A DNA stretch of 64,000 bases from Mastigias papua. Its lineage: Eukaryota > Cnidaria > Scyphozoa > Rhizostomeae > Mastigiidae. Position numbers and translations under genes: made by a program. The notes beneath the pieces are model-generated. The model had not been told where the DNA came from and did not search any database. It saw nothing but the letters and a program-made list of their open reading frames with translations. The DNA lies in assembly GCA_964019165.1 (NCBI GenBank), contig OZ025271.1:320001-384000 (forward strand), in the 5' to 3' direction. This document shows, piece by piece, positions 3,341 through 64,000 of this stretch (its first letter is position 1; each line of letters starts with the position of its first letter).

Positions 3341-3367
3341 CTTCATGTTCTCCTTGTCAAGTCATAA
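2312..3367 (+). CDS. Low-complexity protein exon made of 9-residue repeats (27-bp units)
   Basis: A single open frame of about 351 codons runs from just after a possible splice acceptor (TTTTAATAG at 2303-2311) to a TAA at 3365-3367. An in-frame ATG lies at 2366. The product is a chain of about 38 degenerate 9-residue units with consensus near NDKEKTPPL. It is rich in Asn, Asp, Glu, Lys, Thr and Pro, and has no membrane segment or signal peptide. Units vary a lot, yet only two length exceptions to the 9-residue period are seen. Because the unit is a multiple of three, a second frame is also largely open (His/Arg/Met-rich), so openness alone does not prove coding. It may be a disordered or extracellular repeat protein exon, or an untranslated minisatellite. 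I do not recognise a family. A (TA)n run begins directly after the stop. Confidence 0.4.
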   Translation, partial: STPSLNEEEEISQPNEEEMTVPINDDETTPSLNGKEKIPSVNYEETTPLLKDKEERFPPNDNEPTSSLIDNANEPPINQTEENVPSNDKKETPPLSDDDKAQQSNEKEEELTYNSREITPQFNRKKMKAALIDIDKVPEINHIDGTPSPNEKRKTLPSNDDKNKQQFNDKANEHPINDNDKWPPPNEKEKTLPLEKGKTSFLDHKNKVPRSFEKEKIPLSNEKEKTVSPNYRAKIPPPVKYKGKTLPHTDNEKILHRNGKGKTLLANDNGKRQQLNGRANTLPINDKGNIPPFNDTEKKLSPNDQEQTSVDVKVNEPPITQKEETTPLNDKQKTPPHNGKERVLHVLLVKS

Positions 3368-27003: not shown

Positions 27004-29320
27004 GAGAGGCCGTATAGAAGTGCATGTAATGGTAATAGCTTGAATGTTGATTGGTGTGAACTGCTCTTATCTTAACCACATGCGCACTTTAGTATGATCA
27101 TCGTATTTGCTTGTAATGTTAACAATGAGGCCATTATAGAGAGGCCGTATAGAAGTGCATGTAATGGTAATAGCTTGTATGTTGATTGGTGTGAATTGCT
27201 CTTATCTTAACCACATGCGCACTTTAGTATGATCATCGTATTTGCTTGTAATGTTGACAATGAGGCCATTATAGAGAGGCCGTATAGAAGTGCATGTAAT
27301 GGTAATAGCTTGTATGTTGATTGGTGTGAATTGCTCTTATCTTAACCACATGCGCACTTTAGTATGATCATCGTATTTGCTTGTAATGTTGACAATGAGG
27401 CCATTATAGAGAGGCCGTATAGAAGTGCATGTAATGGTAATAGATTGTATGTTGATTGGTGTGAATTGCTCTTATCTTAACCACATGCGCACTTTAGTAT
27501 GATCATCGTATTTGCTTGTAATGTTGAAAATGAGGCCATTATAGAGAGGCCGTATAGAAGTGCATGTAATGGTAATAGCTTGTATGTTGATTGGTGTGAA
27601 TTGCTCTTATCTTAACCACATGCGCACTTGAGTATGATCATCGTATTTGCTTGTAATGTTGACAATGAGGCCAATATAGAGAGGCCGTATAGAAGTGCAT
27701 GTAATGGTACTAGCTTGTATGTTGATTGGTGTGAATTGCTCTTATCTTAACCACATGCGCACTTGAGTATGATCATCGTATTTGCTTGTAATGTTGAAAA
27801 TGAGGCCATTATAGAAAGGCCGTATAGAAGTGCATGTAATGGTAATAGCTTGTATGTTGATTGGTGTGAATTGCTCTTATCTTAACCACATGCGCACTTT
27901 AGTATGATCATCGTATTTGCTTGTAATGTTGACAATGAGGCCATTATAGAGAGGCCGTATAGAAGTGCATGTAATGGTAATAGATTGTATGTTGATTGGT
28001 GTGAATTGCTCTTATCTTAACCACATGCGCACTTTAGTATGATCATCGTATTTGCTTGTAATGTTGAAAATGAGGCCATTATAGAGAGGCCGTATAGAAG
28101 TGCATGTAATGGTAATAGCTTGTATGTTGATTGGTGTGAATTGCTCTTATCTTAACCACATGCGCACTTTAGTATGATCATCGTATTTGCTTGTAATGTT
28201 GACAATGAGGCCATTATAGAGAGGCCGTATAGAAGTGCATGTAATGGTAATAGCTTGTATGTTGATTGGTGTGAATTGCTCTTATCTTAACCACATGCGC
28301 ACTTTAGTATGATCATCGTATTTGCTTGTAATGTTGACAATGAGGCCATTATAGAGAGGCCGTATAGAAGTGCATGTAATGGTAATAGATTGTATGTTGA
28401 TTGGTGTGAATTGCTCTTATCTTAACCACATGCGCACTTTAGTATGATCATCGTATTTGCTTGTAATGTTGAAAATGAGGCCATTATAGAGAGGCCGTAT
28501 AGAAGTGCATGTAATGGTAATAGCTTGTATGTTGATTGGTGTGAATTGCTCTTATCTTAACCACATGCGCACTTGAGTATGATCATCGTATTTGCTTGTA
28601 ATGTTGACAATGAGGCCAATATAGAGAGGCCGTATAGAAGTGCATGTAATGGTACTAGCTTGTATGTTGATTGGTGTGAATTGCTCTTATCTTAACCACA
28701 TGCGCACTTGAGTATGATCATCGTATTTGCTTGTAATGTTGAAAATGAGGCCATTATAGAAAGGCCGTATAGAAGTGCATGTAATGGTAATAGCTTGTAT
28801 GTTGATTGGTGTGAATTGCTCTTATCTTAACCACATGCGCACTTTAGTATGATCATCGTATTTGCTTGTAATGTTGACAATGAGGCCATTATAGAGAGGC
28901 CGTATAGAAGTGCATGTAATGGTAATAGATTGTATGTTGATTGGTGTGAATTGCTCTTATCTTAACCACATGCGCACTTTAGTATGATCATCGTATTTGC
29001 TTGTAATGTTGAAAATGAGGCCATTATAGAGAGGCCGTATAGAAGTGCATGTAATGGTAATAGCTTGTATGTTGATTGGTGTGAATTGCTCTTATCTTAA
29101 CCACATGCGCACTTTAGTATGATCATCGTATTTGCTTGTAATGTTGACAATGAGGCCATTATAGAGAGGCCGTATAGAAGTGCATGTAATGGTAATAGCT
29201 TGTATGTGGCTTCGCTTGAATTTGAGTGTATTTTAACATCATACGCATTGGATTATGATCATCGTAGTTTGCTTTTGATGCTGAAAATGAGGCCATTATA
29301 GAGAGGCCATATAGAACTAC
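27004..29320. repeat. 135-bp satellite array with 7-mer higher-order structure
   Basis: Sixteen full units start at 27004 and every 135 bp after (27139, 27274 and so on to 29029), each beginning GAGAGGCCGTATAGAAGTGC or a one-base variant. A 17th unit from 29164 turns into a diverged edge copy. Diagnostic variants (GATTG for GCTTG, GTACTAG, GAAAGG, CCAATATA, ACTTGAG) recur every seventh unit, so units 2-8 (27139-28083) are repeated as units 9-15 (28084-29028), a 945-bp higher-order repeat. No coding frame survives across it. Confidence 0.95.
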
Positions 29321-29330
29321 ATGTAATTAT

Positions 29331-39474: not shown

Positions 39475-40026
39475 TCAACCACGTGACAATGCATCGGCAT
39501 TAGAATTGTCCTTGCCTGGTCGGTGGTTAATGTCAAATTCGTATGGTTGCAGCGAAAGACTCCAACGAGTTAACCTCCCATTTTGGTTTTTCATCTTTGC
39601 CAACCATTTCAAAGGATTATGATCTGTCTGCAAAATGAAGTGCTTCCCTAGCAAATAAACTTTAAGTGTATCAATGGCCCATTTAATCGCTAGACACTCC
39701 TTTTCAATTATCGCATAATTGCATTCTCTTGGCAACAATTTTCGACTTATATATAGGATTGGATGATCAGTACCTTCTTCATCTTTTTGACTGAGCATGG
39801 CTCCCAGTCCATAATCACACGCATCAGTTTGCAAAATGTATTTCTTTGAAAAATTGGGTGCTTTCAACGATGGTTCTGTACATAAACATACTTTCAGCTG
39901 CTTGAAGGCTTCATTACATTCATCTGTCCACTTGACTTTCGATGGCGCTGTCTTCTTTGTAAGACTTGTTAATGGTGCTGCAATGTCGGCAAAGTTCTTT
40001 ATGAACTTTCTGTAATATCCAGCCAA
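39475..40026 (-). CDS. pol: RT thumb/connection and RNase H part of pol
   Basis: About 183 residues, open to a TGA at 39475-39477. It begins in the RT thumb (AGYYRKFIKNFADIAAPLTS), then RNase H with the acidic residues in TDACDYGLGAML, IEKECLAIKWAI, LQTDHNPLKWLA and GKDNSNADALSRG. All four RNase H acidic positions appear present. The frame is offset by one from the upstream RT frame because of the extra base at 40056-40061, so this part would not be translated as a fusion. The polyprotein ends here with no chromodomain. Confidence 0.88.
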   Translation of the reverse strand: MAGYYRKFIKNFADIAAPLTSLTKKTAPSKVKWTDECNEAFKQLKVCLCTEPSLKAPNFSKKYILQTDACDYGLGAMLSQKDEEGTDHPILYISRKLLPRECNYAIIEKECLAIKWAIDTLKVYLLGKHFILQTDHNPLKWLAKMKNQNGRLTRWSLSLQPYEFDINHRPGKDNSNADALSRG

Positions 40027-40330
40027 CCCAAGGAACGATCTGACTTCCTTCTTTGTTTTTTGGAATGGGGGATTCGTTCACCGCCTTCACTTTATCAATG
40101 CATGGCTTGACAACTCCGTTTCCAACAATGTGCCCAAGGTATTCAGTTTCGTTCATGCCAAATCTGCATTTACGCAATTTGACTGTCAGTCCAGCTTGTC
40201 TCAATCGCGTGAACATATCTCTCAACTGATCCAAATGATCTTTCCAGCTCATACTATATACCGCAATATCATCCACATACCCTGTTGCATGGCCTTCTGC
40301 TCCTTTTATCAATCTATTGTCGACTAGTCT
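40027..40330 (-). CDS. pol: Central RT part of pol, between a stop and a frameshift
   Basis: The segment is in the same frame as the large upstream frame but separated from it by a TAG at 40331-40333. It carries the RT catalytic core GYVDDIAVYS and then LRKCRFGMNETEYLGHIVG. Near 40056-40061 a run of six T (plus strand) holds one base more than the frame needs, after which RT similarity moves to the next frame. Residues beyond that run in this frame are spurious. Confidence 0.85.
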
Positions 40331-43300
40331 CTAACATGTTGCCTGAGCATCTGCTAAACCAAAAGGCATTGTGACAAATTGCCATAATCCGAACGGGGTA
40401 ATAAACGCTGTCTTCTCCTTTGAATCTTTGGATAATGGGATTTGCCAATAACCTCTTGAAAGATCCATCGTTGTAATGTACTTTGCTCCAGCCATCTTAT
40501 CTATTAAATCTTCAACTCTGGGTAAAGGATATGGAACTACTTTTGCCAACTTATTTACTTCTCTAAAGTCTACACATATACGAACTTCCTGGGAATCCTT
40601 CTTGGGAACAATGACAACTGGTTGTGCCCACTCGCTTACAGATTCTTCAATGATACCATGGTGCTCCATCATTTCCAACTCTCGCTTAACTGCATCTCTC
40701 TGTGCCCATGGAATCCTGTAGGGTCTCTGTCTGATTGGTTTTGCATCGCCAACATCTATTTTGTGCTCCACCAGGCTTGTTCTTCCAGGTATATCATTGA
40801 ACACATCTTTGAATTCTTGCATAAGATTTTTCAACTGACACCTTTGCGCATCATTCAGCATGGGGTTGACTTTAGGCTCTTCTGAGTCCATCTCGAAGGG
40901 GTACTGAATTTCATCATTTTTGAAACACTCGTTGCCACCTTCTAATTCTTTTCCTGACAAGATTGACATGTATGTGACGTTTTCAGGTGTGTTCCATGGC
41001 TTTAACATATCGATGTGAAAAATTCGTTGTCTCTTTTTCTTGTCATGCATTTCGACCTCATAGTTCACGTCTCCAATTTTCCTTTTGATGACGTATGGCC
41101 CTTGCCATGCTGCATGTAGCTTCTTATTGCTTGAGGGTAACAATACCAAAGCCCTTTGTCCAACCTCTAATGATCTGCTTCTTGCCTTTTGATCGTACCA
41201 CCGCTTTTGTCGATCCTGGGACTTTGCAAGGTTTTCTTGAACTAGCTCTGTCATGGAAGCCAGTTTCTCTCTCATTTCAGTCACATATGTCAGTTCATCA
41301 TCTCCAACTTTATGCTTGGTCTCCCAGCTTTCTTTTAATACATCCAATGGTCCCCTTACGTGTCGGCCAAACAAAAGCTCAAATGGTGAAAACCCTGTTG
41401 ACTCTTGAGGCACTTCTCTGTATGCAAGCAAGAGGTATGGTATCAATTTATCCCATTCTTTTGGATGTTCTTGTGCAAACTTGTTCAACATCTTCTTCAA
41501 AGTGCCATTGAACCGTTCCACCAGACCATCTGTCTGAGGGTGATAAGGGCTTGTTTTAATATGTGACACCTGTAGCAGCTCGAGTACCCTTTGCATTAGT
41601 TCTGCCATGAAATTGCTACCTTGGTCAGTGAGCACCTCAGGTGGAATACCATAACGAGTGAAAACTTCTACCATTGCTTCGCTTGTTGTTTCTGCGTCAA
41701 TGTTTCTCAAAGGGATCGCTTCTGGATATCTTGTAGCGTAGTTGCAAACCACCAAGATGTACTTATTTCCACTGTATGTTCTGTCTAATGGTCCAATCAT
41801 ATCCATTGCAATACGACTGAAGGCTTCATCAATGATTGGCATTGACTGCATCTTTGCTCTGGGAGCCTTTTTAGATGTCTTCTGGCAAGCTGCACATGAT
41901 CTGCAATACTCTTTCACATCATGTGAAACACCAGGCCAAAAGAATCGTTGCAATATTCTGCTTTGTGTTTTCTTTGTACCCAAATGTCCTGCCAACGGGA
42001 TGTCATGTGCCAATTCCAAAACTTTCTTTCTGTATTCTCTTGGCAACACTAACTGACGAATCACCTGTGGGTTTTCTGGTTCTCCAGGGTTGAAAGTCCT
42101 ATAAATGAGGCCATCGTCCTCTTCATATGGTGCCGAACCCTCTGTTACCATCTCTCTGATCTTGACCAATGAACTGTCTGTCTTCTGTAGCTTTTGCAAC
42201 TTTTCTTTTCCTCCTGAATCTATACTATTCATGTCACCGTCTACGCTGCTGTTTGGTTCCTTGTTCTTCCATTGTTTCTTTAGCAGTTTCTTCTGACCTC
42301 TTGTTTTCCTAACCTTCCCTTCACCTGTAAAAATTTCATCTTCGAAATTGAATATGTCTACCAGCTGCTTTGGTTTTGCTTCAGATACCATTTCCTTCAC
42401 TAAATTTATCGCCTCTTCTTTTTCTTTCTCTGATCTTTGTTTTCTGGTCATAACAGCCAATGCCGAACCTTTCCTCTTTTGGTCTTCTTTCAGTACCAAT
42501 GCCACTAGATCTTTCACATCTCTGCCCAGCAAGACGGGTCTTGGTAAACCATCTACAACTGCTGCACCCACCGAATACGTCTTGCCATTGACTTCGATTT
42601 CTACAACTGCGATTGGGTACTGCTTCATGTCACCGTGTGCACACTGCATTGATATCCTTTTTTCTTCATTGAACTTTTCAACTGGCACCAAACTGGCATC
42701 AATCATGGTTTTGGAGCACCCTGTGTCTAATAATAACTCTGTCACCTTGCCTTCAACCTTGCCAAGTGTACGATATTCTACTAGTTCTTCTCTGATCACT
42801 AGCTCATCCTCCGATGTGCCTATGTAATTCGCTTTTCCCTGTCCCGTCTGTTGACTGGTCCTGTTCTCTGGACATTTCATGGCAATGTGTCCCAATCTGT
42901 TACAATTAAAGCATCTTGGCTGTTGCTGCAATGGAGAAGTTATATTTGGTTTCCATTGGACTCCTCCCTTTGTGACTGTTGACTGGACTGTCTGCTGTTG
43001 TATTCCCTGCACATTATTCCAGCACTTTGCTGCAATATGACCGATTTGATGGCATTTATGGCATCTTTTCTGCTCTTCCTTTGCACACTTTCTTGCTGTA
43101 ACATAATCATCTGCCAATTCTCCAACTTCTAATGTTGTTTTCGATTTCCTCTCCTTTAACCATATCTTTAGATCTGTAGGCATGCTCTCCATCAGTTGTT
43201 CCATGACCATCATTTCGCAAATTTCCTCTTTGGTTCTTTCTTCCTTTTCTGCCCCTGTCCATTTGTTAAACATATCATTGAGTCGTACACCAAACCCTGA

Positions 43301-43600
43301 ATATGTTTCTTCTGCCTTCTTCTTTGCACCCCTGAAACGTTGCCTGTAGATCTCCTCATTAATATCATACCGCTTTAATATTGCTTCTTTTACTAGATGG
43401 TACTCTTTTGCCCTTTCCATGTTCAGACTTGCGTATGCTGATTGTGCCTTACCAGTGGGTAAGGGTGCTAAATTCAGAACCCACATGTCTTGCGGCCAGT
43501 TGTATGCATGTGCAACCCTCTCAAATGTCGTCAGGTAATACTCAATGTCGTCTGACTCTGTCAATCTCTGCAACTTTGGCTGTCCCATGTTGAAAAGCAT
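40331..43600 (-). CDS. gag-pol: Gag-Pol: capsid, protease, integrase, N-terminal RT
   Basis: 1089 codons ending at a premature TAG (40331-40333). Domains by residue: SCAN-like Gag capsid about 8-170; CCHC knuckles at 180-193 and 230-243; aspartic protease LLDTGCSKTM with Asp292; integrase zinc finger (His532, His539, Cys569, Cys572); catalytic Asp600, Asp659 and Glu695, with exactly 35 residues between the last two; GPY module near 835; then RT from about 940, with VRICVDFREVNK and the Asp in TTMDLSRGYWQI. The frame stops within TMPFGLADAQATC, just before the catalytic YVDD block. Integrase lying between protease and RT is unusual for Ty3/gypsy and diagnostic of the Gmr1 group. The ATG at 43600 starts 7 bases past the stop of the upstream coiled-coil frame. 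Confidence 0.93.
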   Translation of the reverse strand: MLFNMGQPKLQRLTESDDIEYYLTTFERVAHAYNWPQDMWVLNLAPLPTGKAQSAYASLNMERAKEYHLVKEAILKRYDINEEIYRQRFRGAKKKAEETYSGFGVRLNDMFNKWTGAEKEERTKEEICEMMVMEQLMESMPTDLKIWLKERKSKTTLEVGELADDYVTARKCAKEEQKRCHKCHQIGHIAAKCWNNVQGIQQQTVQSTVTKGGVQWKPNITSPLQQQPRCFNCNRLGHIAMKCPENRTSQQTGQGKANYIGTSEDELVIREELVEYRTLGKVEGKVTELLLDTGCSKTMIDASLVPVEKFNEEKRISMQCAHGDMKQYPIAVVEIEVNGKTYSVGAAVVDGLPRPVLLGRDVKDLVALVLKEDQKRKGSALAVMTRKQRSEKEKEEAINLVKEMVSEAKPKQLVDIFNFEDEIFTGEGKVRKTRGQKKLLKKQWKNKEPNSSVDGDMNSIDSGGKEKLQKLQKTDSSLVKIREMVTEGSAPYEEDDGLIYRTFNPGEPENPQVIRQLVLPREYRKKVLELAHDIPLAGHLGTKKTQSRILQRFFWPGVSHDVKEYCRSCAACQKTSKKAPRAKMQSMPIIDEAFSRIAMDMIGPLDRTYSGNKYILVVCNYATRYPEAIPLRNIDAETTSEAMVEVFTRYGIPPEVLTDQGSNFMAELMQRVLELLQVSHIKTSPYHPQTDGLVERFNGTLKKMLNKFAQEHPKEWDKLIPYLLLAYREVPQESTGFSPFELLFGRHVRGPLDVLKESWETKHKVGDDELTYVTEMREKLASMTELVQENLAKSQDRQKRWYDQKARSRSLEVGQRALVLLPSSNKKLHAAWQGPYVIKRKIGDVNYEVEMHDKKKRQRIFHIDMLKPWNTPENVTYMSILSGKELEGGNECFKNDEIQYPFEMDSEEPKVNPMLNDAQRCQLKNLMQEFKDVFNDIPGRTSLVEHKIDVGDAKPIRQRPYRIPWAQRDAVKRELEMMEHHGIIEESVSEWAQPVVIVPKKDSQEVRICVDFREVNKLAKVVPYPLPRVEDLIDKMAGAKYITTMDLSRGYWQIPLSKDSKEKTAFITPFGLWQFVTMPFGLADAQATC

Positions 43601-43607
43601 GTTCTTC

Positions 43608-44039
43608 TCAAAGCCCTCTTTTGCGACTATGCCTTTCTTCTTCCCTGTTTGCTTCCATTTGTTTCATCCATGTCTCCCTCTCTTCTCGTTCTATCGCCAA
43701 CCGCTGTTCTAACATTGCCTGATCTGCTTTGAACCTTTCCATCCTTTCGTATTCCTCCCTGCGTCTTGTTTCTTCGCGGGCCTCTCGTTCTCGCTCCGTA
43801 CTCCTCAAATCTTCTGTCACTGCCGTTTGCTGCCTGCTGATCGATTCCACCAACCGCAGCATGAGGTTCTCTCTTTCTTTATCTTCCTCTTTCCGTTTTT
43901 CTTCTCTTTCAGCCAACCACTTCATTAACTGCACCATTTCACTGTTCTGGCCCCCTTGTGCACCCATGCCAACATCTTGTTCATCTGTATTTCCACATTC
44001 TGATTGTTGCGCCGCTTTCTTGTTTCGACCGCCACCCAT
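43608..44039 (-). CDS. gag: N-terminal Gag region, charged coiled coil
   Basis: 143 codons from an ATG soon after the primer binding site. After a short N-terminus (MGGGRNKKAAQQSECGN) it is almost entirely Glu/Arg/Lys-rich heptad-like sequence (residues about 40-138), predicted to form a coiled coil. It ends with TGA seven bases before the ATG of the large frame, which lies in the +1 frame. Either two proteins are made, ribosomes shift frame at the junction, or one base was lost or gained in this copy. Confidence 0.75.
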   Translation of the reverse strand: MGGGRNKKAAQQSECGNTDEQDVGMGAQGGQNSEMVQLMKWLAEREEKRKEEDKERENLMLRLVESISRQQTAVTEDLRSTEREREAREETRRREEYERMERFKADQAMLEQRLAIEREERETWMKQMEANREEERHSRKRGL

Positions 44040-44107
44040 AACTATCTTTGATTTGCTTTCCTATCTTTTCACTTACTAGTTTATCAACCTTCAGTGAATA
44101 CTCGGAA

Positions 44108-49952: not shown

Positions 49953-50776
49953 TTACTCCAAACTAGCTTCCTGCCCAATAGCTTCAATAGCTTCGAACTC
50001 TACACTCTTAACAAATTGCTCGAAAACTTCTTTTTTTGCTGGCAACTTGCGCTCCTCTACACCTTTAGCAGCGAATTTGTGATGAACTTCATTGTCGCAT
50101 CTGTCATAAACTCCAGCAAAAGTATTTCCATACCTTTGCACGATCCCTTTTCTTTTAAGAAGCAGCTGCAATGTTGGCCATTTATATGAATTCAGCAATG
50201 TTTCATCAAGACCTTCATAAAACTTTTTATAAAACTTGGTGAAGAATTTGGCTAAAGAATTAAGATCTTCAGTCTTCTCTCCTTGAGACCTATATCTGTA
50301 ACCTTTACTGACAAGTTGTCCTCTCATCTTCCGATAGCCATTCTTGGCCTCCAACGCACTCGTCAGCGGCGCATCTCTCGGAGGATGACTCCATATCACT
50401 ATGCTGTCTAATTCAAAGCGGACAGTTTTATTACTAACTATATTGTTGGTAATTTGTACTTGTTTCCAGCCATCATTTGACAACTCATACACAATATGTG
50501 GTGCAATTTTTTTTACTTCGTCTCGATCTTCTTCCGGACTGATTTCCATCTGGCCCCAAGATTGGTCAATTTTCTCAACAAGGCATTGGCGGAAACTTGC
50601 ACCTTGGTGTATCAGCCAAGGGTTAAATACATCTTTAGAAAAGGTATTTCTTGTAAAATTACTTTCAACCCCTTTTCCGATTAGCAATACTGTACTATCC
50701 AATGAAGTTGATACAGCTCTGGTTATCGGTGGGTCCTCACCATTCCTATTCGTAACACCACTCCCGTCCGCCAAAT
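49953..50776 (-). CDS. Terminal exon of the microexon-array gene, unknown domain
   Basis: An 824-bp open segment ending at TAA (49953-49955) and starting after a strong minus-strand acceptor, GCTCTCTTACTTAG. Entry is phase 1: the first two bases AT join a G from the preceding exon to make Asp, exactly what each 51-bp exon of the array supplies. It encodes about 273 residues starting LADGSGVTNRNGEDPP, with a central part PWLIHQGASFRQCLVEKIDQ, VYELSNDGWKQVQITNN and WSHPPRDAPL. A basic helical tail follows (FFTKFYKKFYEGLDETLLNS, then KLPAKKEVFEQFVKSVEF). No membrane segment and no family that I recognise. The acceptor sequence resembles that of the array exons, suggesting common origin. Frame openness over 270 codons in AT-rich DNA supports real coding. 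Confidence 0.6.
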
Positions 50777-50844
50777 CTAAGTAAGAGAGCAAACAACCCA
50801 AACTTAATTTTAAAGCATAGAAAGGACAAAAATTCAATATTCTT

Positions 50845-50905
50845 AGTTCAAGGGTCGAGTTCAAGGTTCGAGTTCAAGGATGGAGTTCAAGGGTCGAGTT
50901 GAAGT
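50845..50905. repeat. Short minisatellite, unit about 13 bp
   Basis: GAGTTCAAGG recurs four times with TCGAGTTCAAG-type units, within the intron between the terminal exon and the first array exon. Confidence 0.7.
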
Positions 50906-50960
50906 GAAACTTACCTCATCTAAGCTGTTCAACTAGCAGCGTTTCAGAATATGACAACTG
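50898..50960 (-). pseudogene. Possible decayed array exon
   Basis: On the minus strand GTCAGTATTTCAG could be an acceptor and GATGAG|GTAAGT an excellent donor, enclosing 43 bases that include ACGCTGCTA as in the type B exons of the array. All three frames contain a stop and the length is not a multiple of three, so it would break the protein. It looks like a degenerated extra unit at the array edge. Confidence 0.3.
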
Positions 50961-51125
50961 AAATACTGACTTCGAAAACGTAAACGTCTTTTATTTTAAT
51001 CTACGTTCTTTCCAAAAGTCACCTCAAACACAAATAACTATCTATATATGCATACCGATATGTTAGAAAACAGCAGTCAGTAATAACCGTTAACCAATGA
51101 AAATCGAGATACAATATATATTCAC

Positions 51126-51176
51126 CTTCACTGAACTGGTTAGCAGTCTGATTATGAGCGAAGTTGCCCTGGAAAT
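51126..51176 (-). CDS. Array microexon 1 (type A, variant)
   Basis: 51 bp, phase 1-1, acceptor CTGTCTTACTTAG, donor GAAG|GTGAA. With the junction Asp it encodes DFQGNFAHNQTANQFSE; Asn replaces the usual Ile at position 9. It is the last array exon before the terminal exon at 49953-50776 in transcript order. Confidence 0.58.
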
Positions 51177-51981
51177 CTAAGTAAGACAGAGATATAAAAT
51201 ATCAAATTGTATTGAATGTTTATGGTTCGTGTTATCAAATTTCAATAGCTAACTGACAATTCAAATTAAATGCCTGATTGGAAATCAAGTCCAACTGCCC
51301 GCTGCTGTACTACTGACAAGTAGGTATCAGCCGAGGTCAAAGTTGTAATGACCCTAAGCACCACAAATGAAACCATCAATTCAGGCCTTCGTTTATTCAT
51401 CATTTATTCACTACCATTCTTTCCATAATTGTCATCTAATCCATTCACTCCATATGTGGACATGACATTTCATCATCCCTGCCATCATTTCACACAGTTC
51501 ACCCGTATGATTTTCTGATCTTATCTATCAAGTTCACTTACTCAGTGAACAACCATGTTTAGAGCACTCTAATAATTAGTATGAAATACTTCATCACCAG
51601 GTTTGTGTATACTTGTGGGTAAAGTGATCTGCAATACTCATTCAGTAGATCAGTTCGTTAAATCAACACCATGTATTTCAGGTTCCGTGTTTCCGTCCAT
51701 AATCAGTGCTACAGAGTTTTGTATTAATCAATATATTTAATAATAGTTAGGTTACCCTAGCCTTACAAATATTACCCTGTTTACTCATACATCCCTAACA
51801 ATTATCCTTACACCATTTGTCTTTCCATCCAAAACGTAAACGTCTTTTATTTTAATCTACGTTCTTTCCAAAAGTCACCTCAAACACAAATGACTATCTA
51901 TATATGCATACCGATATGTTAGAAAACAGCAGTCAGTAATAACCGTTAACCAATGAAAATCGAGATACAATATATATTCAC

Positions 51982-52032
51982 CTTCACTGAACTGGTTAGC
52001 AGTCTGAATATGAGCGAAGTTGCCCTGGAAAT
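51982..52032 (-). CDS. Array microexon 2 (type A1)
   Basis: 51 bp, phase 1-1, both splice signals intact; encodes DFQGNFAHIQTANQFSE. Its downstream intron is partly type B-like (GTAATCTTCTCC), a sign of exchange between subfamilies. Confidence 0.58.
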
Positions 52033-52837
52033 CTAAGTAAGACAGAGATATAAAATATCAAATTGTATTGAATGTTTATAGTTCGTGTTATCAAATTTCA
52101 ATAGCTAACTGAACATTCAAATTAAATGCCTGATTGGAAATCAAGTCCAACTGCCCGCTGCTGTACTACTGACAAGTAGGTATCAGCCGAGGTCAAAGTT
52201 GTAATGACCCTAAGCACCACAAATGAAACCATCAATTCAGGCCTTCGTTTATTCATCATTTATTCACTACCATTCTTTCCATAATTGTAATCTTCTCCAT
52301 TCACTCCATATGTGGACATGACATTTCATCATCCCTGCCATCATTTCACACAGTTCACCCGTATGATTTTCTGATCTTATCTATCAAGTTCACTTACTCA
52401 GTGAACAACCATGTTTAGAGCACTCTAATAATTGGTATGAAATACTTCATCACCAGGTTTGTGTATACTTGTGGGTAAAGTGATCTGCAATACTCATTCA
52501 GTAGATCAGTTCGTTAAATCAACACCATGTATTTCAGGTTCCGTGTTTCCGTCCATAATCAGTGCTACAGAGTTTTGTATTAATCAATATATTTAATAAT
52601 AGTTAGGTTACCCTAGCCTTACAAATATTACCCTGTTTACTCATACATCCCTAACAATTATCCTTACACCATTTGTCTTTCCATCCAAACCGTAAACGTC
52701 TTTTATTTTAATCTACGTTCTTTCCAAAAGTCACCTCAAACACAAATGACTATCTATATATGCATACCGATATGTTAGAAAACAGCAGTCAGTAATAACC
52801 GTTAACCAATGAAAATCGAGATACAATATATATTCAC

Positions 52838-52888
52838 CTTCACTGAACTGGTTAGCAGTCTGAATATGAGCGAAGTTGCCCTGGAAAT
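52838..52888 (-). CDS. Array microexon 3 (type A1)
   Basis: 51 bp, phase 1-1, splice signals intact; encodes DFQGNFAHIQTANQFSE. Confidence 0.58.
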
Positions 52889-53693
52889 CTAAGTAAGACA
52901 GAGATATAAAATATCAAATTGTATTGAATGTTTATAGTTCGTGTTATCAAATTTCAATAGCTAACTGAACATTCAAATTAAATGCCTGATTGGAAATCAA
53001 GTCCAACTGCCCGCTGCTGTACTACTGACAAGTAGGTATCAGCCGAGGTCAAAGTTGTAATGACCCTAAGCACCACAAATGAAACCATCAATTCAGGCCT
53101 TCGTTTATTCATTATTTATTCACAACAATTCTTTCCATAATTGTCATCTAATCCATTCACTCCATATGTGGACATGACATTTCATCATCCCTGCCATCAT
53201 TTCACACAGTTCACCCGTATGAATTTCTGATCTTATCTATCAAGTTCACTTACTCAGTGAACAACCATGTTTAGAGCACTCTAATAATTAGTATGAAATA
53301 TTTCATCACCAGGTTTGTGTATACTTGTGGGTAAAGTGATCTGCAATACTCATTCAGTAGATCAGTTCGTTAAATCAACACCATGTATTTCAGGTTCCGT
53401 GTTTCCGTCCATAATCAGTGCTACAGAGTTTTGTATTAATCAATATATTTAATAATAGTTAGGTTACCCTAGCCTTACAAATATTACCCTGTTTACTCAT
53501 ACATCCCTAACAATTATCCTTACACCATTTGTCTTTCCATCCAAAACGTAAACGTCTTTTATTTTAATCTACGTTCTTTCCAAAAGTCACCTCAAAAACA
53601 AATGACTATCTATATATGCATACCGATATGTTAGACAACAGCAGTCAGTAATAACCGTTAACCAATGAAAATCGAGATACAATATATATTCAC

Positions 53694-53744
53694 CTTCACT
53701 GAACTGGTTAGCAGGCTGAATATGAGCGAAGTTGCACTGGAAAT
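53694..53744 (-). CDS. Array microexon 4 (type A2)
   Basis: 51 bp, phase 1-1, splice signals intact; encodes DFQCNFAHIQPANQFSE. It differs from type A1 by Gly to Cys and Thr to Pro, two non-silent changes that always occur together in this array. Confidence 0.58.
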
Positions 53745-54549
53745 CTAAGTAAGACAGAGATATAAAATATCAAATTGTATTGAATGTTTATAGTTCGTGT
53801 TGTCAAATTTCAATAGCTAACTGAACATTCAAATTAAATGCCTGATTGGAAATCAAGTCCAACTGCCCGCTGCTGTACTACTGACAAGTAGGTATCAGCC
53901 GAGGTCAAAGTTGTAATGACCCTAAGCACCACAAATGAAACCATCAATTCAGGCCTTCGTTTATTCATTATTTATTCACAACAATTCTTTCCATAATTGT
54001 CATCTAATCCATTCACTCCATATGTGGACATGACATTTCATCATCCCTGCCATCATTTCACACAGTTCACCCGTATGATTTTCTGATCTTATCTATCAAG
54101 TTCACTTACTCAGTGAACAACCATGTTTAGAGCACTCTAATAATTGGTATGAAATACTTCATCACCAGGTTTGTGTATACTTGTGGGTAAAGTGATCTGC
54201 AATACTCATTCAGTAGATCAGTTCGTTAAATCAACATCATGTATTTCAGGTTCCGTGTTTCCGTCCATAATCAGTGCTACAGAGTTTTGTATTAATCAAT
54301 ATATTTAATAATAGTTAGGTTACCCTAGCCTTACAAATATTACCCTGTTTACTCATACATCCCTAACAATTATCCTTACACCATTTGTCTTTCCATCCAA
54401 ACCGTAAACGTCTTTTATTTTAATCTACGTTCTTTCCAAAAGTCACCTCAAACACAAATGACTATCTATATATGCATACCGATATGTTAGAAAACAGCAG
54501 TCAGTAATAACCGTTAACCAATGAAAATCGAGATACAATATATATTCAC

Positions 54550-54600
54550 CTTCACTGAACTGGTTAGCAGTCTGAATATGAGCGAAGTTGCCCTGGAAAT
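54550..54600 (-). CDS. Array microexon 5 (type A1)
   Basis: 51 bp, phase 1-1, splice signals intact; encodes DFQGNFAHIQTANQFSE. Confidence 0.58.
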
Positions 54601-55405
54601 CTAAGTAAGACAGAGATATAAAATATCAAATTGTATTGAATGTTTATAGTTCGTGTTATCAAATTTCAATAGCTAACTGAACATTCAAATTAAATGCCTG
54701 ATTGGAAATCAAGTCCAACTGCCCGCTGCTGTACTACTGACAAGTAGGTATCAGCCGAGGTCAAAGTTGTAATGACCCTAAGCACCACAAATGAAACCAT
54801 CAATTCAGGCCTTCGTTTATTCATTATTTATTCACAACAATTCTTTCCATAATTGTCATCTAATCCATTCACTCCATATGTGGACATGACATTTCATCAT
54901 CCCTGCCATCATTTCACACAGTTCACCCGTATGAATTTCTGATCTTATCTATCAAGTTCACTTACTCAGTGAACAACCATGTTTAGAGCACTCTAATAAT
55001 TAGTATGAAATATTTCATCACCAGGTTTGTGTATACTTGTGGGTAAAGTGATCTGCAATACTCATTCAGTAGATCAGTTCGTTAAATCAACACCATGTAT
55101 TTCAGGTTCCGTGTTTCCGTCCATAATCAGTGCTACAGAGTTTTGTATTAATCAATATATTTAATAATAGTTAGGTTACCCTAGCCTTACAAATATTACC
55201 CTGTTTACTCATACATCCCTAACAATTATCCTTACACCATTTGTCTTTCCATCCAAAACGTAAACGTCTTTTATTTTAATCTACGTTCTTTCCAAAAGTC
55301 ACCTCAAAAACAAATGACTATCTATATATGCATACCGATATGTTAGACAACAGCAGTCAGTAATAACCGTTAACCAATGAAAATCGAGATACAATATATA
55401 TTCAC

Positions 55406-55456
55406 CTTCACTGAACTGGTTAGCAGTCTGAATATGAGCGAAGTTGCCCTGGAAAT
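55406..55456 (-). CDS. Array microexon 6 (type A1)
   Basis: 51 bp, phase 1-1, splice signals intact; encodes DFQGNFAHIQTANQFSE. Its flank carries the CAAAAACAAATG and GACAACAGC variants otherwise seen with type A2 exons, so exon and flank types are uncoupled here. Confidence 0.58.
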
Positions 55457-56261
55457 CTAAGTAAGACAGAGATATAAAATATCAAATTGTATTGAATGTT
55501 TATAGTTCGTGTTATCAAATTTCAATAGCTAACTGAACATTCAAATTAAATGCCTGATTGGAAATCAAGTCCAACTGCCCGCTGCTGTACTACTGACAAG
55601 TAGGTATCAGCCGAGGTCAAAGTTGTAATGACCCTAAGCACCACAAATGAAACCATCAATTCAGGCCTTCGTTTATTCATTATTTATTCACAACAATTCT
55701 TTCCATAATTGTCATCTAATCCATTCACTCCATATGTGGACATGACATTTCATCATCCCTGCCATCATTTCACACAGTTCACCCGTATGAATTTCTGATC
55801 TTATCTATCAAGTTCACTTACTCAGTGAACAACCATGTTTAGAGCACTCTAATAATTAGTATGAAATATTTCATCACCAGGTTTGTGTATACTTGTGGGT
55901 AAAGTGATCTGCAATACTCATTCAGTAGATCAGTTCGTTAAATCAACACCATGTATTTCAGGTTCCGTGTTTCCGTCCATAATCAGTGCTACAGAGTTTT
56001 GTATTAATCAATATATTTAATAATAGTTAGGTTACCCTAGCCTTACAAATATTACCCTGTTTACTCATACATCCCTAACAATTATCCTTACACCATTTGT
56101 CTTTCCATCCAAAACGTAAACGTCTTTTATTTTAATCTACGTTCTTTCCAAAAGTCACCTCAAAAACAAATGACTATCTATATATGCATACCGATATGTT
56201 AGACAACAGCAGTCAGTAATAACCGTTAACCAATGAAAATCGAGATACAATATATATTCAC

Positions 56262-56312
56262 CTTCACTGAACTGGTTAGCAGGCTGAATATGAGCGAAGT
56301 TGCACTGGAAAT
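56262..56312 (-). CDS. Array microexon 7 (type A2)
   Basis: 51 bp, phase 1-1, splice signals intact; encodes DFQCNFAHIQPANQFSE. The whole unit appears identical to the next one. Confidence 0.58.
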
Positions 56313-57117
56313 CTAAGTAAGACAGAGATATAAAATATCAAATTGTATTGAATGTTTATAGTTCGTGTTGTCAAATTTCAATAGCTAACTGAACATTCAA
56401 ATTAAATGCCTGATTGGAAATCAAGTCCAACTGCCCGCTGCTGTACTACTGACAAGTAGGTATCAGCCGAGGTCAAAGTTGTAATGACCCTAAGCACCAC
56501 AAATGAAACCATCAATTCAGGCCTTCGTTTATTCATTATTTATTCACAACAATTCTTTCCATAATTGTCATCTAATCCATTCACTCCATATGTGGACATG
56601 ACATTTCATCATCCCTGCCATCATTTCACACAGTTCACCCGTATGATTTTCTGATCTTATCTATCAAGTTCACTTACTCAGTGAACAACCATGTTTAGAG
56701 CACTCTAATAATTAGTATGAAATACTTCATCACCAGGTTTGTGTATACTTATGGGTAAAGTGATCTGCAATACTCATTCAGTAGATCAGTTCGTTAACTC
56801 AACACCATGTATTTCAGGTTCCGTGTTTCCGTCCATAATCAGTGCTACAGAGTTTTGTATTAATCAATATATTTAATAATAGTTAGGTTACCCTAGCCTT
56901 ACAAATATTACCCTGTTTACTCATACATCCCTAACAATTATCCTTACACCATTTGTCTTTCCATCCAAAACGTAAACGTCTTTTATTTTAATCTACGTTC
57001 TTTCCAAAAGTCACCTCAAAAACAAATGACTATCTATATATGCATACCGATATGTTAGACAACAGCAGTCAGTAATAACCGTTAACCAATGAAAATCGAG
57101 ATACAATATATATTCAC

Positions 57118-57168
57118 CTTCACTGAACTGGTTAGCAGGCTGAATATGAGCGAAGTTGCACTGGAAAT
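57118..57168 (-). CDS. Array microexon 8 (type A2)
   Basis: 51 bp, phase 1-1, splice signals intact; encodes DFQCNFAHIQPANQFSE. It shares private flank variants (ACTTATGGG, GTTAACTCAAC) with unit 7, marking a very recent duplication. Confidence 0.58.
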
Positions 57169-57973
57169 CTAAGTAAGACAGAGATATAAAATATCAAATT
57201 GTATTGAATGTTTATAGTTCGTGTTGTCAAATTTCAATAGCTAACTGAACATTCAAATTAAATGCCTGATTGGAAATCAAGTCCAACTGCCCGCTGCTGT
57301 ACTACTGACAAGTAGGTATCAGCCGAGGTCAAAGTTGTAATGACCCTAAGCACCACAAATGAAACCATCAATTCAGGCCTTCGTTTATTCATTATTTATT
57401 CACAACAATTCTTTCCATAATTGTCATCTAATCCATTCACTCCATATGTGGACATGACATTTCATCATCCCTGCCATCATTTCACACAGTTCACCCGTAT
57501 GATTTTCTGATCTTATCTATCAAGTTCACTTACTCAGTGAACAACCATGTTTAGAGCACTCTAATAATTAGTATGAAATACTTCATCACCAGGTTTGTGT
57601 ATACTTATGGGTAAAGTGATCTGCAATACTCATTCAGTAGATCAGTTCGTTAACTCAACACCATGTATTTCAGGTTCCGTGTTTCCGTCCATAATCAGTG
57701 CTACAGAGTTTTGTATTAATCAATATATTTAATAATAGTTAGGTTACCCTAGCCTTACAAATATTACCCTGTTTACTCATACATCCCTAACAATTATCCT
57801 TACACCATTTGTCTTTCCATCCAAAACGTAAACGTCTTTTATTTTAATCTACGTTCTTTCCAAAAGTCACCTCAAACACAAATGACTATCTATATATGCA
57901 TACCGATATGTTAGAAAACAGCAGTCAGTAATAACCGTTAACCAATGAAAATCGAGATACAATATATATTCAC

Positions 57974-58024
57974 CTTCACTGAACTGGTTAGCAGTCTGAA
58001 TATGAGCGAAGTTGCCCTGGAAAT
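57974..58024 (-). CDS. Array microexon 9 (type A1)
   Basis: 51 bp, phase 1-1, splice signals intact; encodes DFQGNFAHIQTANQFSE. Confidence 0.58.
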
Positions 58025-58829
58025 CTAAGTAAGACAGAGATATAAAATATCAAATTGTATTGAATGTTTATAGTTCGTGTTATCAAATTTCAATAGCTAA
58101 CTGAACATTCAAATTAAATGCCTGATTGGAAATCAAGTCCAACTGCCCGCTGCTGTACTACTGACAAGTAGGTATCAGCCGAGGTCAAAGTTGTAATGAC
58201 CCTAAGCACCACAAATGAAACCATCAATTCAGGCCTTCGTTTATTCATTATTTATTCACAACAATTCTTTCCATAATTGTCATCTAATCCATTCACTCCA
58301 TATGTGGACATGACATTTCATCATCCCTGCCATCATTTCACACAGTTCACCCGTATGAATTTCTGATCTTATCTATCAAGTTCACTTACTCAGTGAACAA
58401 CCATGTTTAGAGCACTCTAATAATTAGTATGAAATATTTCATCACCAGGTTTGTGTATACTTGTGGGTAAAGTGATCTGCAATACTCATTCAGTAGATCA
58501 GTTCGTTAAATCAACACCATGTATTTCAGGTTCCGTGTTTCCGTCCATAATCAGTGCTACAGAGTTTTGTATTAATCAATATATTTAATAATAGTTAGGT
58601 TACCCTAGCCTTACAAATATTACCCTGTTTACTCATACATCCCTAACAATTATCCTTACACCATTTGTCTTTCCATCCAAAACGTAAACGTCTTTTATTT
58701 TAATCTACGTTCTTTCCAAAAGTCACCTCAAAAACAAATGACTATCTATATATGCATACCGATATGTTAGACAACAGCAGTCAGTAATAACCGTTAACCA
58801 ATGAAAATCGAGATACAATATATATTCAC

Positions 58830-58880
58830 CTTCACTGAACTGGTTAGCAGGCTGAATATGAGCGAAGTTGCACTGGAAAT
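58830..58880 (-). CDS. Array microexon 10 (type A2)
   Basis: 51 bp, phase 1-1, splice signals intact; encodes DFQCNFAHIQPANQFSE. It is the last type A unit going right. Confidence 0.58.
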
Positions 58881-59685
58881 CTAAGTAAGACAGAGATATA
58901 AAATATCAAATTGTATTGAATGTTTATAGTTCGTGTTGTCAAATTTCAATAGCTAACTGAACATTCAAATTAAATGCCTGATTGGAAATCAAGTCCAACT
59001 GCCCGCTGCTGTACTACTGACAAGTAGGTATCAGCCGAGGTCAAAGTTGTAATGACCCTAAGCACCACAAATGAAACCATCAATTCAGGCCTTCGTTTAT
59101 TCATTATTTATTCACAACAATTCTTTCCATAATTGTCATCTAATCCATTCACTCCATATGTGGACATGACATTTCATCATCCCTGCCATCATTTCACACA
59201 GTTCACCCGTATGATTTTCTGATCTTATCTATCAAGTTCACTTACTCAGTGAACAACCATGTTTAGAGCACTCTAATAATTAGTATGAAATATTTCATCA
59301 CCAGGTTTGTGTATACTTGTGGGTAAAGTGATCTGCAATACTCATTCAGTAGATCAGTTCGTTAAATCAACACCATGTATTTCAGGTTCCGTGTTTCCGT
59401 CCATAGTCAGTGCTACAGAGTTTTGTATTAATCAATATATTTAATAATAGTTAGGTTACCATAGCCTTACAAATATTACCCTGTTTACTCATACATCCCT
59501 AACAATTATCCTTACACCATTTGTCTTTCCATCCAAACCGTAAACGTCTTTTATTTTAATCTACGTTCTTTCCAAAAGTCACCTCAACCACAAATAACTA
59601 TCTATATATGCATACCGATATGTTAGAACACAGCATTCAGTAATAACAATTAACCAATGAAAATCGAGATACTATATATAGTCAC

Positions 59686-59736
59686 CTTCAATGACCTGGT
59701 TAGCAGCGTCAATATCAATGAATTTGAGCTTCCAAT
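59686..59736 (-). CDS. Array microexon 11 (type B1, variant)
   Basis: 51 bp, phase 1-1, acceptor CTGTCTTTCTTAG, donor GAAG|GTGAC; encodes DWKLKFIDIDAANQVIE. First type B exon. Val replaces Phe in the otherwise conserved AANQF motif. Confidence 0.58.
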
Positions 59737-60542
59737 CTAAGAAAGACAGAGATATAAAATATCAAATGTCATTGAATGTTTATGGTTCGTGTTATCAAAT
59801 TTCAATAGCTAACTGACAATTCAAATTAAATGCCTGATTAGAAATCAAGTCCAACTGCCCGCTGCTGTACTACTGACAAGTGGGTCTCAGCCGAGGTCAA
59901 AGTTGTAATGACCCTAAACACCACAAATTAAACCATCAATTCAGGCCTTCGTTTATTCATCATTACTTCACTACCATTCTTTCCATAATTGTAATCTTCT
60001 CCATTCACTCCAGATCTGGACATGACCTATCATCATCCCTGCCATCATTTCACACAGGTCACCCGCTTGACTTTTTTATCTTATCTGTCAAGTTCACTTA
60101 CTCAGTAAACCACCATGTTTAGAGCAATTTAATAATTAGTATGAAATATTTCATCACCAGGTTTTGTGTATACTTGTGGGTAAAGTGATCTGCAATAACC
60201 ATTCAGTAGATCAGTTCGTTAAATCAACATCATGTATTTCAGGTTCCGTGTTTCCGTCCATATTCAGTGCTACAGAGTTTTGTATTAATCAATATATTTA
60301 ATAATAGTTAGGTTACCCTAGCACTACAAATACTACCCTGTTTAATCATACATCCCTAACAATTATCCTTACACCATTTGTCTTTCCATCCAAACCGTAA
60401 ACGTCTTTTATTTTAATCTACGTTCTTTCCAAAAGTCACCTCAAACACAAATGACTATCTATATATGCATACCGATATGTGAGAAAACAGCATTCAGTAA
60501 TAACCATTAACCAATGAAAATCGAGATACTATATATAGTCAC

Positions 60543-60593
60543 CTTCAATGAACTGGTTAGCAGCGTCAATATCAATGAATTTGAGCTTCCAAT
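60543..60593 (-). CDS. Array microexon 12 (type B1)
   Basis: 51 bp, phase 1-1, acceptor CTGTTTGTCTTAG, donor intact; encodes DWKLKFIDIDAANQFIE. Confidence 0.58.
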
Positions 60594-61399
60594 CTAAGAC
60601 AAACAGAGATATAAAATATCAAATGTCATTGAATGTTTATGGTTCGTGTTATCAAATTTCAATAGCTAACTGACAATTCAAATTAAATGCCTGATTAGAA
60701 ATCAAGTCCAACTGCCCGCTGCTGTACTACTGACAAGTGGGTCTCAGCCGAGGTCAAAGTTGTAATGACCCTAAACACCACAAATTAAACCATCAATTCA
60801 GGCCTTCGTTTATTCATCATTAATTCACTACCATTCTGTCCATAATTGTAATCTTCTCCATTCACTCCAGATCTGGACATGACCTATCATCATCCCTGCC
60901 ATCATTTCACACAGGTCACCCGTTTGACTTTGTTATCTTATCTGTCAAGTTCACTTACTCAGTAAACCACCATGTTTAGAGCAATTTAATAATTAGTATG
61001 AAATATTTCATCACCAGGTTTTGTGTATACTTGTGGGTAAAGTGATCTGCAATAACCATTCAGTAGATCAGTTCGTTAAATCAACATCATGTATTTCAGG
61101 TTCCGTGTTTCCGTCCATATTCAGTGCTACAGAGTTTTGTATTAATCAATATATTTAATAATAGTTAGGTTACCCTAGCCTTACAAATATTACCCTGTTT
61201 ACTCATACATCCCTAACAATTATCCTTACACCATTTGTCTTTCCATCCAAACCGTAAACGTCTTTTATTTTAATCTACGTTCTTTCCAAAAGTCACCTCA
61301 AACACAAATGACTATCTATATATGCATACCGATATGTGAGAAAACAGCAGTCAGTAACAACAATTAACCAATGAAAATCGAGATACTATATATAGTCAC

Positions 61400-61450
61400 C
61401 TTCAAAGAATTTATTAGCAGCGTCAATATCAACGAATTTGTGCTTCCAAT
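61400..61450 (-). CDS. Array microexon 13 (type B2, variant)
   Basis: 51 bp, phase 1-1, splice signals intact; encodes DWKHKFVDIDAANKFFE. Lys replaces Gln in the AANQF motif. Confidence 0.58.
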
Positions 61451-62257
61451 CTAAGAAAGACAGAGATATAAAATATCAAATGTCATTGAATGTTTATGGT
61501 TCGTGTTATCAAATTTCAATAGCTAACTGACAATTCAAATTAAATGCCTGATTAGAAATCAAGTCCAACTGCCCGCTGCTGTACTACTGACAAGTGGGTC
61601 TCAGCCGAGGTCAAAGTTGTAATGACCCTAAACACCACAAATGAAACCATCAATTCAGGCCTTCGTTTATTCATCATTAATTCACTACCATTCTTTCCAT
61701 AATTGTAATCTTCTCCATTCACTCCAGATCTGGACATGACCTTTCATCATCCCTGCCATCATTTCACACAGGTCACCCGTTTGACTTTTTTATCTTATCT
61801 GTCAAGTTCACTTACTCAGTAAACCACCATGTTTAGAGCAATTTAATAATTAGTATGAAATATTTCATCACCAGGTTTTGTGTATACTTGTGGGTAAAGT
61901 GATCTGCAATAACCATTCAATAGATCAGTTCGTTAAATCAACATCATGTATTTCAGGTTCCGTGTTCTCCGTCCATAGTCAGTGCTACAGAGTTTTGTAT
62001 TAATCAATATATTTAATAATAGTTAGGTTACCCTAGCCTTATAAATATTACCCTGTTTAATCATACATCCCTAACAATTATCCCTACACCATTTTTCTTT
62101 CCATCCAAAACGTAAACGTCTTTTATTTTAATCTACGTTCTTTCCAAAAGTCACCTCAAACACAAATGACTATCTATATATGCATACCGATATGTGAGAA
62201 AACAGCAGTCAGTAACAACAATTAACCAATGAAAATCGAGATACTATATATAGTCAC

Positions 62258-62308
62258 CTTCAAAGAATTGGTTAGCAGCGTCAATACCAACGAATTTGTG
62301 CTTCCAAT
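62258..62308 (-). CDS. Array microexon 14 (type B2, variant)
   Basis: 51 bp, phase 1-1, splice signals intact; encodes DWKHKFVGIDAANQFFE, with Gly for Asp at position 8. Confidence 0.58.
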
Positions 62309-63114
62309 CTAAGAAAGACAGAGATATAAAATATCAAATGTCATTGAATGTTTATGGTTCGTGTTATCAAATTTCAATAGCTAACTGACAATTCAAATTA
62401 AATGCCTGATTAGAAATCAAGTCCAACTGCCCGCTGCTGTACTACTGACAAGTGGGTCTCAGCCGAGGTCAAAGTTGTAATGACCCTAAACACCACAAAT
62501 GAAACCATCAATTCAGGCCTTCGTTTATTCATCATTAATTCACTACCATTCTTTCCATAATTGTAATCTTCTCCATTCACTCCAGATCTGGACATGACCT
62601 TTCATCATCCCTGCCATCATTTCACACAGGTCACCCGTTTGACTTTTTTATCTTATCTGTCAAGTTCACTTACTCAGTAAACCACCATGTTTAGAGCAAT
62701 TTAATAATTAGTATGAAATATTTCATCACCAGGTTTTGTGTATACTTGTGGGTAAAGTGATCTGCAATAACCATTCAGTAGATCAGTTCGTTAAATCAAC
62801 ATCATGTATTTCAGGTTCCGTGTTTCCGTCCATATTCAGTGCTACAGAGTTTTGTATTAATCAATATATTTAATAATAGTTAGGTTACCCTAGCACTACA
62901 AATACTACCCTGTTTAATCATACATCCCTAACAATTATCCTTACACCATTTGTCTTTCCATCCAAACCATAAACGTCTTTTATTTTAATCTACGTTCTTT
63001 CCAAAAGTCACCTCAAACACAAATGACTATCTATATATGCATACCGATATGTGAGACAACAGCAGTCAGTAACAACAATTAACCAATGAAAATCGAGATA
63101 CTATATATAGTCAC

Positions 63115-63165
63115 CTTCAAAGAATTGGTTAGCAGCGTCAATATCAACGAATTTGTGCTTCCAAT
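63115..63165 (-). CDS. Array microexon 15 (type B2)
   Basis: 51 bp, phase 1-1, splice signals intact; encodes DWKHKFVDIDAANQFFE. Confidence 0.58.
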
Positions 63166-63971
63166 CTAAGAAAGACAGAGATATAAAATATCAAATGTCA
63201 TTGAATGTTTATGGTTCGTGTTATCAAATTTCAATAGCTAACTGACAATTCAAATTAAATGCCTGATTAGAAATCAAGTCCAACTGCCCGCTGCTGTACT
63301 ACTGACAAGTGGGTCTCAGCCGAGGTCAAAGTTGTAATGACCCTAAACACCACAAATGAAACCATCAATTCAGGCCTTCGTTTATTCATCATTAATTCAC
63401 TACCATTCTTTCCATAATTGTAATCTTCTCCATTCACTCCAGATCTGGACATGACCTTTCATCATCCCTGCCATCATTTCACACAGGTCACCCGTTTGAC
63501 TTTTTTATCTTATCTGTCAAGTTCACTTACTCAGTAAACCACCATGTTTAGAGCAATTTAATAATTAGTATGAAATATTTCATCACCAGGTTTTGTGTAT
63601 ACTTGTGGGTAAAGTGATCTGCAATAACCATTCAGTAGATCAGTTCGTTAAATCAACATCATGTATTTCAGGTTCCGTGTTTCCGTCCATAATCAGTGCT
63701 ACAGAGTTTTGTATTAATCAATATATTTAATAATAGTTAGGTTACCCTAGCACTACAAATACTACCCTGTTTAATCATACATCCCTAACAATTATCCTTA
63801 CACCATTTGTCTTTCCATCCAAACCGTAAACGTCTTTTATTTTAATCTACGTTCTTTCCAAAAGTCACCTCAAACACAAATGACTATCTATATATGCATA
63901 CCGATATGTGAGAAAACAGCAGTCAGTAACAACAATTAACCAATGAAAATCGAGATACTATATATAGTCAC

Positions 63972-64000
63972 CTTCAATGAACTGGTTAGCAGCGTCAATA
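63972..64000 (-). CDS. Array microexon 16 (type B, cut by window edge)
   Basis: The 3' 29 bases of a further exon with an intact donor GAAG|GTGAC; the visible part encodes IDAANQFIE. The rest lies beyond the window. Confidence 0.5.

Follow-up and report, generated by a model that had tools for sequence, protein, structure and literature searches.

Organization of the locus

We analysed a stretch of 64,000 nucleotides (hereafter the window) from the scyphozoan Mastigias papua, i.e. positions 320001-384000 of contig OZ025271.1 in a genome assembly of 347 Mb and 172 contigs (GenBank GCA_964019165.1). The right-hand part of the window holds a tandem array of units, each with a 51-bp minus-strand segment that we treat as a predicted exon, and a single open terminal exon lies downstream of the array. 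The segments (E1-E20) and the terminal exon are predictions read from DNA alone. An earlier interpretation of the same letters (hereafter the sequence-only reading) proposed at least 15 such exons with AG/GT borders and phase 1-1. All 15 complete units of the window do contain a 51-bp segment of this kind, ending GAAG/GTGA (the slash marks the splice border) and spaced 856-858 bp apart. A 16th segment (64022-63972) straddles the window edge, and when the next 72 kb rightward are added (136 kb in total, hereafter extended coordinates) the count rises to 20 segments over about 40 kb. Of the 15 window units, E1-E10 form class A and E11-E15 class B, to which E16-E18 also belong. The predicted features are as follows (coordinates, strand, description).

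49953..50776, minus, terminal exon, 274 residues including the split first codon, TAA end, conserved uncharacterised domain
50777..51125, minus, last intron, 349 bp, of which 50777-50971 is outside the repeat unit
51126..51176, minus, E1, 51-bp exon, type A, DFQGNFAHNQTANQFSE
51344..51691, minus, example of an intron segment of roughly 350 bp like a dispersed genomic repeat (about 70% identity), exon excluded
51982..52032, minus, E2, type A
52838..52888, minus, E3, type A
53694..53744, minus, E4, type A
54550..54600, minus, E5, type A
55406..55456, minus, E6, type A
56262..56312, minus, E7, type A
57118..57168, minus, E8, type A
57974..58024, minus, E9, type A
58830..58880, minus, E10, type A
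59686..59736, minus, E11, type B, DWKLKFIDIDAANQVIE
60543..60593, minus, E12, type B
61400..61450, minus, E13, type B
62258..62308, minus, E14, type B
63115..63165, minus, E15, type B, DWKHKFVDIDAANQFFE
63972..64000, minus, E16, type B, cut at the window edge (whole exon 63972-64022, extended)
64829-64879 (extended), minus, E17, type B
65686-65736 (extended), minus, E18, type B
72278-72328 (extended), minus, E19, own type
91230-91280 (extended), minus, E20, outermost exon, DWKHNFVDIKAADQFIK

The first exon bases lie at 51176, 52032 ... 65736, then 72328 and 91280 (extended coordinates). All 20 segments are stop-free, and length, phase and the AG and GT dinucleotides are kept in 20/20 despite the span of about 40 kb and two units split by transposons. 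The donor is AAGGTGACTAT in 10 segments and AAGGTGAATAT in the other 10, while the acceptor ends in TTAG in 19 segments (..CTTAG in the window units) and in GTAG in one. When the 136 kb were scanned on both strands for AG-51-GT segments with an open phase 1-1 frame, no 21st copy was found: the 20 segments score 89-100, a self-match by construction, and the next best score 15 (minus strand) and 16 (plus strand). Openness alone is weak evidence, since stops are also absent from frame 0 and from one antisense frame in 20/20 copies; phase 1 is the one that continues into the conserved terminal exon. Each segment is preceded by 8 open residues without Met, so the segments need splicing.

Unit identity is 97.0-99.1% within class B and 98.4-99.9% within class A, save the E1 unit at 94-95%. 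Both transposon insertions lie within introns. One is a BEL/Pao-type long terminal repeat (LTR) element (extended 66455-72186), with an open frame that has matches to DUF1759, reverse transcriptase and Pao peptidase; the element is probably young because its 216-bp ends are 99% identical. The other, an element of about 18 kb (extended 72471-90568) with inverted ends of 242 bp at 84% identity, splits the next unit and holds some 15 kb of TACAG-like satellite. Judging from the unit positions, the chain of units would run uninterrupted between E20 and E1 if these two insertions were removed. A genome DNA search with two type-A units, in which 39 of 157 candidates were scored, listed 43 matches (counts are lower bounds). 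Two of these are on the same contig, both inside the array; the 41 on other stretches are about 250-355 bp long, 67-73% identical and restricted to an intron segment, the exon not being covered. By this comparison the array unit contains an old dispersed repeat, and no exon copy was found elsewhere among the matches listed.

The terminal exon and its relatives

The sequence-only reading also held that the open exon at 49953-50776 is entered in the same phase through a similar acceptor, and this agrees with our results: its acceptor core, TCTTACTTAG/ATTT, and its phase are those of the 51-bp segments. The first Met of the terminal stop-to-stop frame (306 residues) is at residue 109, inside the conserved domain. 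With no Met ahead of the domain, the start must be spliced on from an upstream exon.

A single-sequence search with the terminal exon retrieved three proteins besides itself, and a profile search retrieved 23 relatives that are 33-39% identical over the multiple alignment. These are predicted proteins of 187-411 residues, none of which has a name; in 20 of the 23 cases no contig longer than about 26 kb is listed. A Pfam scan of the 23 members gave a best E of 0.039, the domain had no PDB match of note, and two protein searches of the genome returned one match each, the terminal-exon locus. The locus thus points to a protein domain family without a Pfam match in the members scanned. Most relatives are extended at the N-terminus by some 40 or more residues, and the motif there, approximately H..D....A..FI...W, lies in a helix (residues 4-29) in the AlphaFold2 model of relative P0018.

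Divergence of exons and introns

We then compared the exons with their own introns. Between classes A and B, 28.4% of exon sites differ, against 8.1% in the upstream and 4.6% in the downstream intron, and exon divergence between the main classes is nearly five times intron divergence. The corresponding values (exon, upstream intron and downstream intron) are 2.5%, 1.0% and 2.1% within A, and 7.8%, 0.8% and 2.8% within B. In the A and B consensus sequences of the 15 window units, 14 of 51 exon positions differ versus 47 of 805 intron positions (Fisher p 3.3e-6). The highest-scoring divergent segment, found blindly, spans columns 433-476, inside the exon (430-481), and is reached in 0/5000 permutations; the best 51-bp window outside the exon has 7 differences. 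Four single-pair comparisons with longer flanks, not mutually independent, also give exon divergence above intron divergence for E19-A (p 0.033), E19-B (4e-5) and E20-A (3e-4), and E20-B is suggestive only (p 0.08).

Most exon changes are nonsynonymous (Nei-Gojobori A-B: dN 0.41, dS 0.08). A codon model of the 11 distinct exons gives an omega of 4.0 (lnL -221.18 vs -223.45 at omega 1; about p 0.03), a value that rests on few events as there are only about eight synonymous sites. The excess exon divergence between A and B is probably due to selection for variety in the repeated protein part. Alternatively, exon types A and B may simply be old, their introns having been homogenised later by gene conversion without any positive selection. 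This explanation concerns the selection step only and is compatible with splicing. It fits the observations that in the exon E19 is nearer type A and E20 nearer type B, and that the intron flanks are about equally diverged in the comparisons made (E19 and E20), and it keeps some weight because the synonymous sites are so few. Conversion would, however, have to halt at the exon borders, and dS on those few sites is near intron divergence and far from the nonsynonymous value. We regard it as unlikely.

The same contrast bears on whether the copies are used at all. The array could be a satellite or degenerate variable-number tandem repeat (VNTR), with at most one exon in use, the one closest to the terminal exon, and the remainder passenger DNA. 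The units are indeed homogenised within each class, no protein with the repeats was found among about 5.8 billion proteins, and the lack of stops is not strong evidence alone, as 14 random substitutions yield a stop in only about 30% of simulated trials. But if the copies were unused, a divergence several times faster than in the flanks would not be expected to coincide exactly with the 51-bp segment, nor is passenger DNA easily reconciled with splice dinucleotides kept in every copy, and we consider this possibility very unlikely.

Proposed serial use of the exons

We put at roughly two in three the probability that the locus is one minus-strand gene in which any number of serial, skippable, symmetric micro-exons are joined to one terminal exon, under diversifying selection. 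Splicing would link the 20 tandem segments, as phase 1-1 exons, one after another to the terminal exon, with 17 residues gained per exon included. The repeat region could then change in length and composition, with the frame intact, through exon skipping as well as through unequal crossing-over of the 856-bp unit. The repeat region would correspond to the N-terminal helix of the relatives, multiplied and diversified, and would probably be a binding surface. Splicing, serial use and positive selection as the cause of the excess divergence are what we infer from these patterns. The sequence-only reading had likewise proposed phase-matched exons feeding one terminal exon; this core is supported by the divergence peak on the predicted exon, an omega of about 4, the missing start codon ahead of the domain and, moderately, a match of E20 to the N-termini of the relatives, while the chain has grown from 15 to 20.

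A different mode of use would be mutually exclusive choice of one of the 20 segments per transcript, as in insect Dscam1, which would give the one-helix architecture of the relatives with a variable helix. The aligned N-termini of the relatives show, by eye, one such motif, and the exons are equal in length and phase and diversified. On the other side, 51 is divisible by three, so the frame does not punish multiple inclusion. Pairing of the unique part of the last intron with the unit intron was equalled or exceeded in 150 of 200 shuffles, and that of the upstream flank was no better than shuffles (78/100 as strong). Moreover, the ten near-identical type A copies add little choice. We prefer serial use with optional skipping because (i) 51 bp in phase 1-1 is frame-neutral; (ii) docking-type pairing was not found in the two flanks tested; and (iii) near-identical exons give a choice mechanism little to choose from. 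Exclusive choice appears to be distinctly improbable.

There is moderate evidence, resting on E20, that the 51-bp exons are multiplied versions of the relatives' N-terminal helix. Against a motif profile built from 21 of the 23 relatives (P0023 and P0024 were omitted as too short there), E20 scores 5.2 bits, matched by 5/1000 self-shuffles, the best of four tests. A count by eye gives 22 residues from the motif F to the conserved AVST here, against 23 in P0017.

Several results weigh against the serial-exon gene. The motif profile gives 1.7 bits for type B (41/1000 shuffles as good) and -1.4 bits for E19 (60/1000), and is worst for type A (-1.4 bits, 218/1000), which adjoins the terminal exon; the last two repeats plus the start of the terminal exon score -3.8 bits. 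The full-length family profile stops short of the repeats in the spliced protein, and the helical hydrophobic moment of the repeats is not above shuffles. The spliced repeat part had no match at E up to 10 in the collection of about 5.8 billion proteins (510 candidates), a null result that is evidence against a broad presence of such transcripts in the collection, not against the gene. Besides the small number of synonymous sites behind omega, the diversity of the class A exon (2.5%) is barely above that of its downstream intron (2.1%). Finally, no first exon was identified in the 72 kb inspected to the right of the window, where there are candidates only (100372-111297).

If the segments are exons, the locus would hold 51-bp exons whose divergence is nearly five times that of the adjoining introns, all within a homogenised array, and would make it possible to measure at one place how unequal crossing-over, frame-neutral exon length and diversifying selection are linked.

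Upstream frames and neighbouring elements

The candidates are three duplicated open frames on the strand of the array (minus; extended 100372-101490, 103368-104465 and 110200-111297). Each is preceded by CTGTCTAG, partly by construction, since its TAG also bounds the frame. Counting all phases, there are 7 to 11 donor-like sites per frame, two of which are phase-1 GTATGT sites located around codons 215-220 and 289-299. One of the frames, cut near its second site, was scanned against domains and gave a sub-threshold match to HEPN_DZIP3 (E 0.008, 16.3 bits against a curated cut-off of 27). The phase of the three frames is compatible with that of E20, and we regard them only as candidate upstream exons. 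A DDE_Tnp_4 transposase open reading frame (ORF; 107776-108579) sits between copies 2 and 3, and a further ORF at extended 125013-125678 (plus strand) is weakly like HEPN_DZIP3 (E 0.0097, below cut-off). HEPN-like genes may surround the array.

A bolder proposal is that the locus represents a new kind of recognition gene, a receptor repertoire within a single gene with a HEPN-like N-terminal exon, a 20-module stalk and a new effector-type C-terminal domain. Each module of the stalk would have 17 residues and diversify rapidly, and recombination and splicing would alter how many modules there are and in what order. We hold this to be a long shot.

Elsewhere in the window, a Ty3/gypsy-type LTR element lies at 39475-44060 (minus strand). 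Its frame 40334-43663 matches the SCAN domain, and its integrase domains stand ahead of the reverse transcriptase, an order that we take to be Gmr1-like. At 26999-29327 a 135-bp unit is repeated in tandem (17.2 copies, 96% matches), and at 2312-3367 (plus strand) an open frame of 351 residues contains many degenerate short repeats.

Comparison with known systems

No described case was recognised as the array gene in the literature, as judged from titles and the beginnings of abstracts, with most subscription papers outside this scope. The sequence-only reading knew of no described family with such a layout, a claim that is too strong because schistosome micro-exon genes (MEGs) also have small symmetric exons in tandem. 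A 1988 schistosome report, by its title, reportedly describes tandemly repeated exons encoding 81-base repeats. The excerpts available on MEGs describe short symmetric exons in tandem with long introns between them, exon skipping, and dN/dS just above 1 for the mature parts of three MEGs (PMC10526429, PMC3961193, PMC4350168), with exon sizes of 6-36 bp (PMC3961193) or up to 81 bp (PMC10526429). Small symmetric exons make up most of the coding region of a MEG, and here the predicted ones, all phase 1-1, account for 20 x 51 nt, or 55%, of a predicted coding length of about 1844 nt (a share that falls if an upstream exon is added). MEG products carry an N-terminal signal peptide and are secreted, and no exon for such a peptide has turned up here. 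In contrast to the MEGs as excerpted, there is a single exon length of 51 bp, the exons are 856-858 bp apart where no transposon intervenes, and one homogenised array stands beside a large conserved C-terminal domain, with the exon-intron contrast between classes. The Mastigias papua gene, on this analysis, is not filed under MEG: its layout is MEG-like with differences. Part of schistosome VAL-6, a VAL gene, is described as MEG-like, with symmetric exons of very small size (PMC4350168); the gene has another domain, and the available part of that description has no homogenised unit.

Insect Dscam1 has tandem homologous exons of equal phase that are diversified, according to the excerpted sources (PMC8042237, PMC6071210). 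The homologous predicted exons here are similarly equal in length and phase. Exons are mutually exclusive in Dscam1, whereas no docking/selector complementarity was found here in the two flanks tested.

The kringle IV-2 (KIV-2) unit of LPA holds introns. This coding VNTR, as outlined in its source, is a tandem unit inside one gene, with 1-40 units per allele (PMC11462820). The present array resembles it in having a tandem unit that combines an exon-like segment, whose use as an exon is predicted, with intron sequence. The LPA unit is 5.6 kb, whereas the one described here is 0.86 kb, with a 51-bp exon and divergence between classes that is centred on this exon.

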